Part shown: piece by piece, positions 20,034-25,047 of the stretch
Numbering within the stretch: position 1 is the stretch's first letter
Layout: each line of letters starts with the position of its first letter
Assembly: GCA_900315885.1 (NCBI GenBank)
Contig: ONAT01000014.1
Coordinates: 1-33,633, forward strand
DNA length: 33,633 nt
Source of the DNA: an uncultured Erysipelotrichaceae bacterium
GTDB taxonomy: Bacteria > Bacillota_I > Bacilli_A > RFN20 > CAG-826
Direction: 5' to 3'
The notes under the pieces: generated by a model
Told to the model about the DNA's origin: nothing
Database searches by the model: none
What the model saw: the letters and a program-made list of their open reading frames with translations, nothing else
Position numbers and translations under genes: made by a program

Positions 20034-20312
20034 ATGGAAAAAGATTTAAATTATTATCGTAATGAACTTGATATTATCGATTTAGAAATGCAAGAATTAT
20101 TCAAAAAGCGCATGCAAATTGTTAAGAAAATTGCAAATTATAAAGCACAAAACAATTTATCTACATATGATAGAACACGTGAAAACACACAATTAGAAAA
20201 TATTGTGCAAAACAAGGATAAAATTGTGTCATCTTATTATCCTGAAGTCTTTAAAAGTATCTTAAAAGTTAGTAAAGATTATCAAAAAGATTTAACTAAT
20301 ACTCTTAAATAA
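20034..20312 (+). CDS. Chorismate mutase, AroQ-fold, stand-alone
   Basis: 92-residue all-helical chorismate mutase converting chorismate to prephenate. The catalytic set known from the E. coli domain is present in order: R9, R26, K37, D46, R49, E50 and Q84. No prephenate dehydratase or dehydrogenase domain is attached, so the product is free prephenate. The ATG at 20034 follows AAGGTG; a TTG at 19989 would lie within the -35 hexamer. It is divergent from the aro operon across 127 bases, and its last 21 bases overlap the 3' end of the opposing large U32 gene. Confidence 0.92.
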   Translation: MEKDLNYYRNELDIIDLEMQELFKKRMQIVKKIANYKAQNNLSTYDRTRENTQLENIVQNKDKIVSSYYPEVFKSILKVSKDYQKDLTNTLK

Positions 20313-22598
20313 TAAACCAAAAGATTCATTGCTAGAAACTGAGATATATGCCTTATTTTCTAGCATTTTTAATGTTTTTTCAAAAGTAACAACATCTAAA
20401 TTTCTTAAGTCAACAATCGAAGGATTTCTGATTTTTTTGTAGCAATTTATTAAGCGATTATTTAATAATTCAAAATAGCAATAATTAATCCTAATTCTTC
20501 TTAAAGAATAATTCTTATTATATTCATCTATATAAGAGATTGAATTATTATATTTACACATTTTGCAATCATTTTTATAAATTGTTTTAATAGGGCAATG
20601 TACATAATTCATTAATGTGTTATAACCTAAAGCGTAATAATATAGATTGGGATTTTCTTTTAAGAATGTTTCGTTACTTTCTAATGAAGCAAAAACATAC
20701 TTAATTCCTAAATGATTTAAAAATGACAAAGCATAATTGTTATTGATATTTAAATTGAATCCTGCGATTAATTGTGATTTATTTATAAACGTTAAAGCAT
20801 ATAAGTTATTTGCAATAAGATATACATCATTTAAGTAATTAACAATTTCATTAATGATTTTTAAATCTTCTTTAAATGCAATAATAGGTAAATTTAAGGC
20901 AACTTTCGCATTTATAAATTTTTCTTTAATTTCTTTTACATGCACAATAACTTCTTTATTAAAATATAAAGGTGAATAAATAATTAATCCTTTGTAGTCA
21001 AAAGGAAGTAAATCCAAATTATTATCTTCATTTATAATAAGTGCATCATCTAATGAATCTAAAGAATAAGTAAAATCTAAATCTTTATTAATAGCAACTG
21101 CATTTCTTTTTTCAAATGTTTCAATAATTGCGTTCTCTAGTAATGTCACTGCGCTTCTTCTTGCTTCATTAAGTGCACTTTTAACGATAAAGACTTGATC
21201 ATCATCAACGCTTAAATCTCTTAACACAAAATTTGTATCATTTAGTTTCTCTACTTGCTTTTTGATATCTTCAAATGTGGTAGGTTGATTGATTGCTTTA
21301 TTGCAGACAAAAGAAGATTTATAAGATATTTCTATTTTTTTATAAACTATTTTAATGAGAAGATTTTCATTTTCTTTCGCTACTACTTTAATATCAACCG
21401 GCAATTTCTTAACTTTATTAATTAATTCTTCTTCTTTTTGATAATCAAGTGTCAAATAAATATCTAAACCCTTTTCTTTAATTTTTTGTTTAGTAAAAAT
21501 CTTATAAGTATTATTTCCTCTTTTAATAATATTACCTACACCTAAACTTGCGATCTCTTTGTTCTTCCACATAAACTTTAAGCCATCGCCGGAATGTAAT
21601 TCGTGACTTGAAACAATTTCTAATTCCAGCAAATCATTTTTAAATGGTTTAACAGATGTTAATGTACCAATCTTAATTCCGATATGATTTTGATTAATCA
21701 GATTCATCATTCCCTCTTTATTATGATTTAAATATGCTTCATAAGAAAAGTCACCACGCGAAAAAGCCACTTTTAAAGCTTCAAGGTCATTTTTTGAAGC
21801 ATCTTTTAAACCATTATCAATGATTTTTCGATATGTTGATATAACTACTCCAACATATCCTTCTCTTTTTAATCTTCCTTCAATTTTAAATGATGTAACG
21901 CCAGCATCAACTAAAGTTTTTAATTTATTAATTAAACAAATGTCTTTAGTTGAAAGATAATACGCTTTGTCTTTTAAAGAATCATTATCTTTTACGATAT
22001 ATTGTTTACGGCAATATTGTTGACATAAGCCGCGATTACCACTATTTAAAGATAAGAAACTTGACATGTAACAATTGCCAGAAAAGCCAACACATAACGC
22101 TCCTTGCACAAAGAATTCTATTTCTAAATTAGTGTTATCTCTTATTTCTTTGATATCTTCTAAAGAAGTTTCACGCGATAAAATTACTCTTTTAAAACCT
22201 AGTTGTTCAACAATTTTTGCTCCTTCAAGGTTATGAATTCCCATTTGTGTGGAAGCGTGTAAAACTATGCCTTTATATCTTTTACTTAATAAATAAGCCA
22301 TACCTAAATCTTGAATTATATAGGCATCTACTTTTGCTTCAATACACTTATCCACCATTTTCAAGAAAGCATCTACTTCTTCGTTTTTAATAATGGTATT
22401 AAATGTAAGGTAAATTTTAACATTAAACAAGTGTGCGTAACGAACAACTTCTCTAATGGAATCTACAGTAAAATTACTTGCCTTGCGGCGAGCATTAAAA
22501 TCCGTTAAACCCAAATATATAGCATTTGCTCCATTATTTATGGCAACTTTTAAGCTTTCAAAATTGCCGGCAGGGGCTAGTAATTCAACTTCCTTCAT
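20292..22598 (-). CDS. Large U32/DUF3656 protein, RlhA-like rRNA cytidine hydroxylase candidate
   Basis: 768-residue U32 protein. The N-terminal TIM barrel starts VELLAPAGNF and carries the signature E161-x-F-x2-G-A-L-C169-x6-C176, then C192, C196 (GLCQQYC) and C221, the likely iron-sulfur ligands. Residues about 395-510 match DUF3656, including SALNEARRSAVTLLENAI. The C-terminal part holds a second cysteine set C668, C678, C681 and C707 typical of the long clostridial members. U32 plus DUF3656 is the architecture of E. coli RlhA, which hydroxylates 23S rRNA C2501 and depends on prephenate and iron-sulfur assembly. It converges on the prephenate-forming mutase with overlapping 3' ends. Function is inferred; a peptidase role was the older annotation and has little support. 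Confidence 0.85.
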   Translation of the reverse strand: MKEVELLAPAGNFESLKVAINNGANAIYLGLTDFNARRKASNFTVDSIREVVRYAHLFNVKIYLTFNTIIKNEEVDAFLKMVDKCIEAKVDAYIIQDLGMAYLLSKRYKGIVLHASTQMGIHNLEGAKIVEQLGFKRVILSRETSLEDIKEIRDNTNLEIEFFVQGALCVGFSGNCYMSSFLSLNSGNRGLCQQYCRKQYIVKDNDSLKDKAYYLSTKDICLINKLKTLVDAGVTSFKIEGRLKREGYVGVVISTYRKIIDNGLKDASKNDLEALKVAFSRGDFSYEAYLNHNKEGMMNLINQNHIGIKIGTLTSVKPFKNDLLELEIVSSHELHSGDGLKFMWKNKEIASLGVGNIIKRGNNTYKIFTKQKIKEKGLDIYLTLDYQKEEELINKVKKLPVDIKVVAKENENLLIKIVYKKIEISYKSSFVCNKAINQPTTFEDIKKQVEKLNDTNFVLRDLSVDDDQVFIVKSALNEARRSAVTLLENAIIETFEKRNAVAINKDLDFTYSLDSLDDALIINEDNNLDLLPFDYKGLIIYSPLYFNKEVIVHVKEIKEKFINAKVALNLPIIAFKEDLKIINEIVNYLNDVYLIANNLYALTFINKSQLIAGFNLNINNNYALSFLNHLGIKYVFASLESNETFLKENPNLYYYALGYNTLMNYVHCPIKTIYKNDCKMCKYNNSISYIDEYNKNYSLRRIRINYCYFELLNNRLINCYKKIRNPSIVDLRNLDVVTFEKTLKMLENKAYISVSSNESFGLLFKSIS

Positions 22599-22721
22599 TT
22601 TTCTCTCTTACCTTTCATTATCAAGTATAAAGCAAGTTAGGTAAAAACAAAAATATTTTTAAAATTTTTCAAATAAAAATCAAATTGAAATTATTTATTA
22701 AGTGAAAAGAGGAGAAAACTT

Positions 22722-23918
22722 ATGAAAAAAATTAAATTTATTTTTCCAGCAATGCTCGCTATGATTCTCGCAGGTTGCAATGGAAACAACAAAAACGCAA
22801 ACAACAATGAAAATGGTAATCAACTAGCCAAAAACGCTTTAATGGAGAATATCGCTGTCGATACTTTATCTTCCGCCGAATTGTTAGATACTCTTGAAGA
22901 AATCTCTGAAGTAACTGACACTACTACTGACGGAAATGAAGAGACACCTACACCAGATATTCCTAGCGAGGGAGAAACAGAAACTCCTGATGAGAATTTA
23001 ACAATTGTAAACAAATATATTCAATTGTTTGAAACGATGACTTCAGAAGATGGATTAGTAATTAATCTCTATGAAAGCGATAGAGAAGATTATAAATACC
23101 TTTTAACTATCAATGCTTCCTTATTAGGCAAAGAAAAACAAGAATTCAAGCTTTATTACAATGAAGTAATTAAAGACATTGATAATGAAGAAACTCCTGA
23201 TGTCGATGGTGAAGAAACAGGCGATACTATAACTGATGAAAAAGAAACTACAGAAGAAGCACCTGAACCAACCATTAAGGAAAAGAAACATCATCACAAA
23301 TTCAAATTTGTTGAATTAGAAGGAATTCTTATTAAAGATGAACAAGAAATCGCTGTCAAAGGAGAAACATTTGTCGATGATGAAGAAACAAAAACTTCTT
23401 TCAAAGCTGAATTAGAAGATGGAAAAGTAGTTAAAATCAAATCTAAGATTTCTAGTGAAGAAAAATCATACGAATACGAATTAAAAGAAAAACATCGCAC
23501 TATTGCTAAAAACAAATTAAAGATTGAAAAAGACGAGGAAGATGGCGAAACGAAACTAAAATTAGAAATCAAAAATAGTGAAGAGAACATCAAATACGAA
23601 ATCAAAAAGATTGTCAAAGACGAACAAGAAATCTACAAGATTCACTACAAAAACAATGCAGAAAAAGGTTATTACATCGCTTATGTTTCTAAAGATGAAG
23701 AAGGTAATACTGTCGTAACTTATGAAACAAAAGATGGAGGAAAACACCACCACGGAGATTATGGCTGGGGATGTGGAGATCATGGACACCATCACGGACA
23801 CGATTTTGAATGGGACTGGGATCAAGATGATGATTTCGATTATGGTGAATTAGATAAAGAATTCGGACAAACTCCTGATGAAATTGATGATATTCTCCAA
23901 AAATTACTTGAAGAATAA
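22722..23918 (+). CDS. Acidic, histidine-rich lipoprotein, probably truncated by an in-frame stop
   Basis: 398-residue lipoprotein of unknown function. The signal sequence ends in LAGC with C19, and AGAGGAG lies eight bases before the ATG. The mature protein is Asn- and Glu-rich, with Thr/Pro/Glu linkers (about 60-95 and 155-185), a Lys/Glu-rich repetitive beta-like region (about 190-330) resembling extended lipoprotein repeats, a histidine cluster (EKKHHHK near 190) and a Gly/His/Trp/Asp-rich tail from about residue 340 (KHHHGDYGWGCGDHGHHHGH). The His/Asp tail suggests metal binding at the cell surface. The frame stays open for 74 more codons after the TAA, with the same composition, so this reading frame is likely the front part of a longer gene. 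Confidence 0.7.
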   Translation: MKKIKFIFPAMLAMILAGCNGNNKNANNNENGNQLAKNALMENIAVDTLSSAELLDTLEEISEVTDTTTDGNEETPTPDIPSEGETETPDENLTIVNKYIQLFETMTSEDGLVINLYESDREDYKYLLTINASLLGKEKQEFKLYYNEVIKDIDNEETPDVDGEETGDTITDEKETTEEAPEPTIKEKKHHHKFKFVELEGILIKDEQEIAVKGETFVDDEETKTSFKAELEDGKVVKIKSKISSEEKSYEYELKEKHRTIAKNKLKIEKDEEDGETKLKLEIKNSEENIKYEIKKIVKDEQEIYKIHYKNNAEKGYYIAYVSKDEEGNTVVTYETKDGGKHHHGDYGWGCGDHGHHHGHDFEWDWDQDDDFDYGELDKEFGQTPDEIDDILQKLLEE

Positions 23919-24143
23919 AATATCGAAGACTTTGATATCGATGCATTCTTAGAAAAATATTATAGTGAAAAAGCTAACGAAGGCTGCGATTCAGAATTTG
24001 AATTCGATGAAGATGATTTCGAATTTGATGATGACTATGAATTTGAGGACGAATTCGATTTTGAAGATGACGAATTTGATTTTGGTGGTCATCAAAAAGA
24101 AGATTATAAAGAAGATCATCACCGTCCAAACGGACATCGTTAA
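23919..24143 (+). pseudogene. In-frame continuation of the acidic lipoprotein beyond a TAA codon
   Basis: Directly after the TAA at 23916-23918 the same frame continues for 74 sense codons to a second TAA at 24141-24143. It begins NIEDFDIDAFLEKYY and is dominated by alternating Asp/Glu and Phe, including SEFEFDEDDFEFDDDYEF, then ends in a His/Asp/Pro stretch. Composition and phase match the upstream gene. One base change (GAA to TAA) would explain the interruption. There is no ribosome site for independent translation. Confidence 0.7.
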
Positions 24144-24154
24144 TTAAGCATTTT

Positions 24155-24186
24155 AAAAGAGCATATCCAAATTATGCTCTTTTTTT
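24155..24186. terminator. Bidirectional terminator
   Basis: AAAAGAGCATA (24155-24165) pairs with TATGCTCTTTT (24173-24183) around a seven-base loop and is followed by T. It closes the lipoprotein gene and the converging PAP2 gene, whose stop codon is in the hairpin. Its position just after the second TAA supports 24143 as the original gene end. Confidence 0.8.
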
Positions 24187-25047
24187 GTAGTCGATTTTAT
24201 ACATAAGAACATATGTAACAAATATTATTATCATTGCAAGCATAATAGCGAACGTTACATCAGTTATAAAGTGCGCACCCATAATTAAGCGAGTAAAGGC
24301 AACAATAAATGTCCAACCTATACCGATAAGAAATAATATGTGTTCTTTATTTTCGTATTTCTTATCAAAATGTGGTAAATACATTAATAACAAAGCTAAG
24401 CAAGCTGAAGAAGAATGACCTGATGGACAACTCTTAAATTCATCAGAAATTACACCTAATTCCATATATTTTTCACGAACTCCAGTATTTAATTCCCACC
24501 AATTCCTAAATAAATCATAAGAATATAGATCCACAAATCGAGGTCTTGGACGAGCCCAAATTTTCTTTAATAAAGTTACAACAAGTAAAACTCCTGCAAT
24601 AGAAATAAGCATAGCAAATAAAGTTTTTAAAATTAACGGATTCTCACTTCTACTTGTTAACAAATATCCGCAATATCCACATCCTCCGCAGATTAAGATG
24701 GCAATAGGCAAAGATATATACCATTGCTTTTCAATATCTAACGCATTATGTGATTTTATTGCATTGCTAGATAAATATGTTCCAATAATAGTAACGATAA
24801 TCGCTAAAACTATTAATGCAATTTTTTCAGCTTTCTTTTCTCTTTTTAACGATACCGCAATTAACCCTCCACCAATAAATGCAAGTCCACCATAAGCAGG
24901 AGTTTCACCAATCGCGGCAAAGAACATACCGACAACACTTTTATTATTGTAGATGATTTTAGCAAAACTTAGATCAAAGAATAAGCCAATAACAAAAAAT
25001 GCTAATACAATAATAAATGTCGAAATATAAATTAGTTTCTTTTTCAT
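24172..25047 (-). CDS. PAP2-family membrane phosphatase
   Basis: 291-residue integral membrane protein with about six to seven hydrophobic segments. The three PAP2 motifs are present: K161-x4-RPRPR (KKIWARPRPRF), PSGH at 208-211 (SCPSGHSS) and R253-x5-H259-x3-D263. Members dephosphorylate lipid phosphates such as phosphatidate or undecaprenyl diphosphate (PgpB/BcrC type). The active site would face outward. It is a monocistronic gene with GGTGA ahead of its ATG. Sequence does not decide the substrate; lipid-carrier recycling would fit the cell-wall genes nearby but is inference. Confidence 0.85.
   Translation of the reverse strand: MKKKLIYISTFIIVLAFFVIGLFFDLSFAKIIYNNKSVVGMFFAAIGETPAYGGLAFIGGGLIAVSLKREKKAEKIALIVLAIIVTIIGTYLSSNAIKSHNALDIEKQWYISLPIAILICGGCGYCGYLLTSRSENPLILKTLFAMLISIAGVLLVVTLLKKIWARPRPRFVDLYSYDLFRNWWELNTGVREKYMELGVISDEFKSCPSGHSSSACLALLLMYLPHFDKKYENKEHILFLIGIGWTFIVAFTRLIMGAHFITDVTFAIMLAMIIIFVTYVLMYKIDYKKRA

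Follow-up and report, generated by a model that had tools for sequence, protein, structure and literature searches.

The window analysed here, the whole stretch of 33,633 nucleotides from the genome of an uncultured Erysipelotrichaceae bacterium, holds a gene for an acidic lipoprotein in which an in-frame TAA is followed by further open codons in the same frame. This raises the question of whether the stop is a fresh truncation, an error of the sequence, a signal that ribosomes sometimes pass, or an old end of the protein. A sequence-only reading had placed the TAA at 23916 with 74 codons beyond it, and the ORF coordinates and frame bear this out (Table 1). We consider it probable that an ordinary, recent, single in-phase nonsense change truncates the lipoprotein at residue 398, inside an acidic tail specific to this species.

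Layout of the interrupted gene

The ORF begins with the lipoprotein signal MKKIKFIFPAMLAMILAGC, has the lipobox MILAGC and is preceded by a ribosome-binding-like stretch. Two in-frame stops are directly observed, the second (24141–24143) lying 74 sense codons beyond the first. No array over position 23916 was detected by Tandem Repeats Finder, the nearest being located at 23876–23894 (9-base unit, 2.1 copies). The tail had been described as ending just before the gene's terminator; a terminator-like hairpin does lie there, but its occurrence is at chance level (one match found versus a mean of 0.9 in shuffles), and part of it falls within the end of the PAP2 gene.

Table 1. Features of the interrupted lipoprotein gene and its immediate surroundings (positions in the window)
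Feature	Position	Strand	Remarks
Lipoprotein ORF, 398 aa	22722–23918	+	ends at TAA 23916–23918
Family domain, residues ~1–337	in ORF 22722–23918	+	family profile comparison
His/Asp-rich segment, residues ~338–383	in ORF 22722–23918	+	
Predicted short helix-like C-terminal end of the 398-aa ORF		+	low-confidence structure model
In-frame TAA	23916–23918	+	next base A
74 open codons and TAA	23919–24143	+	same frame, D/E/F-rich, gene-like codon usage
Imperfect in-frame D/E/F repeats	23994–24088	+	further copy before the stop at 23826–23848
Terminator-like hairpin with T run	24155–24183	+	11 nt past second TAA; overlaps convergent PAP2 gene end
Peptidase U32 / DUF3656 gene	20292–22598	-	left neighbour
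PAP2-superfamily gene	24172–25047	-	right neighbour; adjoins U32 gene in three congeners

Coding character of the tail and age of the stop

At the base composition of the window the probability of 74 open codons is ~0.002, and the tail stayed open in its frame in 11 of 5000 dinucleotide-preserving shuffles. Open length alone is nevertheless weak evidence, since the D/E-rich codons also leave the tail almost free of stops in its reverse frames. Scored against the codon usage of the 21 other tallied window genes, the tail had a log-likelihood of +0.65 bit per codon in frame and negative values in the other five frames; the 222 bases directly before the stop scored +0.67. Six copies of the D/E/F repeat, one before the stop (at 23826) and five after it (23994–24066), keep the frame, every spacing being a multiple of 3, and show 10, 26 and 60 differences at codon positions 1, 2 and 3, respectively (8, 16 and 44 for the five post-stop copies), counts given without a P value because the copies are related and non-independent. 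The tail is 43% aspartate plus glutamate, and none of 7814 segments of 74 residues in the 21 other proteins reached this share.

Judged from these properties of its sequence, the tail is very probably former coding sequence, as had been supposed from its unbroken phase: it is open only rarely by chance, and codon usage, frame and repeats agree in giving the downstream frame the coding signature that a nonsense mutation leaves behind. The description of the tail as conserved-looking is correct only in part: neither the family ORFs nor a tail-only search of 224 family genomes yielded a relative with a homologous tail. Besides the window's own genome, the latter search gave weak matches in seven genomes (E 0.0015 to 0.04). 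Five of these did not belong to this lipoprotein family, going by names given by eye from the reading frames on the matching strand (L181 and L182, flavoprotein-like; L179, a membrane protein; L178, a glycosidase-like lipoprotein; L177, an unlikely frame), and no ORF was found by script at L176 and L180. All seven were treated as chance.

Of the single-base substitutions possible in the tail, approximately 5–6% would create a stop. When neutral change was simulated, the median wait for a second stop was 12 substitutions (95th percentile 47), corresponding to 0.05 and 0.21 per site. Since neither a second stop nor a frameshift is present within the 222 bases of the tail, the stop is young, absent from much of the population, or followed by a tail that is still selected; we infer that it is recent. 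An old stop, with the 398-residue form as the normal protein, followed by a 74-codon relic of a longer tail, agrees poorly with this absence of decay and seems very improbable, even though every shared feature is already present in the 398-residue form, and proteins elsewhere in the family stop close to the domain or, in a few cases, finish with a His-rich tail.

Truncation and its alternatives

The ancestral gene would have encoded a lipoprotein of ~473 residues (a length derived from one sequence), composed of a signal peptide with lipobox, the family domain, and a His/Asp-rich and then D/E/F-rich tail. A single in-phase nonsense change in the lineage or strain would have moved the end of translation to residue 398, and the shorter lipoprotein would still comprise the membrane anchor, family domain and His/Asp-rich segment, with 74 acidic residues lost. 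As the tail is fast-evolving, its loss is probably tolerated; the short form may well be stable and surface-exposed, and the acidic, His-rich segments may bind metal ions. The stop spares the conserved domain together with a His/Asp-rich segment that resembles the C-terminus of an intact 417-aa relative from G125. In nonsense-truncated (pseudogene-like) genes of bacterial surface proteins there is likewise a single in-phase stop with a remaining frame that is gene-like; unlike in those genes, the truncated product here retains the full family domain, which makes loss of function doubtful. Dispensable tails often acquire nonsense changes, and the stop by itself therefore matters little.

An assembly base error, or the allele of a minority strain taken up by the consensus, with the usual gene running to 24143, is an appreciably less likely account, albeit one that deserves some weight. 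One base would be enough, the genome is a 39-contig draft of 96.85% completeness, and there is no second lesion in the tail; on the other hand, the stop lies outside tandem arrays, the assembly contains the gene in only one copy, and nothing points specifically to an error. Of the four options listed by the sequence-only reading, two fit the data, namely a nonsense mutation of recent date and an error in the sequence; the other two, phase-variation-like loss of a surface domain and read-through, found no support.

Programmed or basal read-through, by which a minor share of the product would be extended by the acidic tail, would suit the intact frame past the stop, and the base following TAA is A, not the U described as the strongest-terminating next base (PMC5289835). 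Every testable feature that would support it is missing, however. UAA is itself reported in the same source as the bacterial stop with the least read-through, and TAA is an ordinary stop here, as it ends 11 of the 21 other tallied window genes (TAAA in 4 of 21). Folding of the RNA that follows the stop is unremarkable (z = 0.11), with no sign of a stimulating structure. Anticodons TTA, CTA and TCA, as would be carried by a suppressor tRNA, were absent among the 39 tRNA genes found, an incomplete set that lacks several expected tRNAs, Asn and Glu(UUC) among them. Among the 122 family ORFs (distinct translations from the loci analysed, some of them cut off where a stretch ends; more places are listed in the family tables) the arrangement of a stop with a coding extension occurs once, in the window itself, and is not conserved. 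In none of the 121 other family ORFs was the stop followed by an acidic in-frame run; with runs of at least 20 codons considered, the next highest D+E fraction was 0.23 over 22 codons. No paper on bacteria, judged by title, came up when the literature was searched for read-through that extends the C-terminus of a bacterial protein.

With no unusual RNA structure, no suppressor anticodon among the 39 tRNA genes found and no counterpart among the 121 other family ORFs, read-through was rejected as highly unlikely, and we give hardly any credence to a leaky or conditionally suppressed TAA by which one gene might produce two lipoproteins, the long one with a 74-residue, strongly acidic surface tail. 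The case carries a caution, namely that a frame open past a stop is no evidence for read-through. Slippage, and with it phase-variation-like loss, was rejected since the reading frame does not shift across the stop and no simple repeat array covers 23916, and an independent start within the tail is improbable given the absence of an in-frame ATG, GTG or TTG across its 74 codons. Decoding of AGG as methionine is reported for some uncultivated Bacilli (PMC8629427); there is no sign of such a code here, as AGG accounts for 10 of 9347 codons in the window and ATG for 195.

Family of the lipoprotein and its genomic setting

Of 58 related genomes, 10 gave homologues in single-sequence searches, the window's own included, with L002 matched at 3e-20 over residues 2–340. 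Among genomes searched with a family profile (A1), 78 of 224 in the family and 103 of 279 in the order had matches (E 1e-5). The window protein combines a full-domain match to A1 with a lipobox, its score arising by construction since it is one of the eight sequences from which the profile was built; the part before the stop spans profile positions 1–290 of 291, plus 61 residues. At least 25 residues past the domain were seen in 6 of the 122 family ORFs (the window, one each in L002, L064 and L008, and two in L053), so a long tail is no general need of the family. Three of the 122, the window's included, have at least 10% His in their last 60 residues.

The closest architecture belongs to the orphan lipoprotein of G125 (L119:2839–4092, the same gene as in L064), which is 29% identical to the window protein over 295 aligned columns and shares with it an acidic linker, a central His cluster and a His/Asp-rich C-terminus, but is uninterrupted at 417 aa and has no D/E/F repeat tail. 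Two tandem proteins of G058 (L053) end in a His-containing stretch and then a D/E/F-rich end in one frame; these ends resemble the window's full tail in composition, a likeness for which homology is not claimed.

Eight family members were scanned against Pfam and NCBIfam, giving no match below E 0.03 in the former and no match in the latter. A profile search of solved structures returned nothing at E 0.1, and a single-sequence AlphaFold2 model of the lipoprotein (mean pLDDT 38.8) was too poor for a fold search. No close relatives were found in the genome contigs, a set with one genome per species from which very near genomes may be absent. At E 1e-5 no family match turned up in congeners G001 and G003, and the only copy in G002 is distant and lies at another locus. 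A 482-aa lipoprotein of G001 with repeated domains and a run of X (L012:184–1632) was matched by its signal peptide only.

In the window, the lipoprotein gene sits between the U32 and PAP2 genes (22599–24171) in opposite orientation to both. In the three congeners these two genes are adjacent, with gaps of 92 (G003), 106 (G001) and 16 bases (G002) and no lipoprotein gene between them, and the window gene therefore entered or was retained there only in its own lineage.

Across the order, a sigma-like gene was present on the same stretch as the family gene at 45 of 83 distinct places, many of the remaining stretches being too short to show one. At L120:4232–6814, L131:2349–4849 and similar loci, an ECF sigma factor, a membrane protein and a lipoprotein stand in a row. 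The lipoprotein profile matches both the membrane protein and the lipoprotein, which thus have a common domain. The lipoprotein of these clusters is of the same family as the window's by profile, with a signal peptide and a similar domain, but the window gene is an orphan with neither an ECF sigma nor an anti-sigma neighbour, only the U32 and PAP2 genes, and with a long acidic tail interrupted by a stop. A literature search on operons of an ECF sigma factor, an anti-sigma factor and a lipoprotein or third gene found nothing. Of greater use as a lead on envelope signalling in uncultured bacteria with small genomes is the family itself, in which a lipoprotein shares its domain with an ECF-adjacent membrane protein.

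The family lipoprotein of G038 (L002:2589–3704) has as its neighbour a protein whose central domain is RsgI-like (PF23750, 5e-28), an anti-sigma partner of another kind. The window's own genome has four sigma-70 region 2 matches, all on other contigs, and at L174:1393–3088 another sigma-70-like gene of this genome overlaps one for an anti-sigma-like membrane protein that has no family match.
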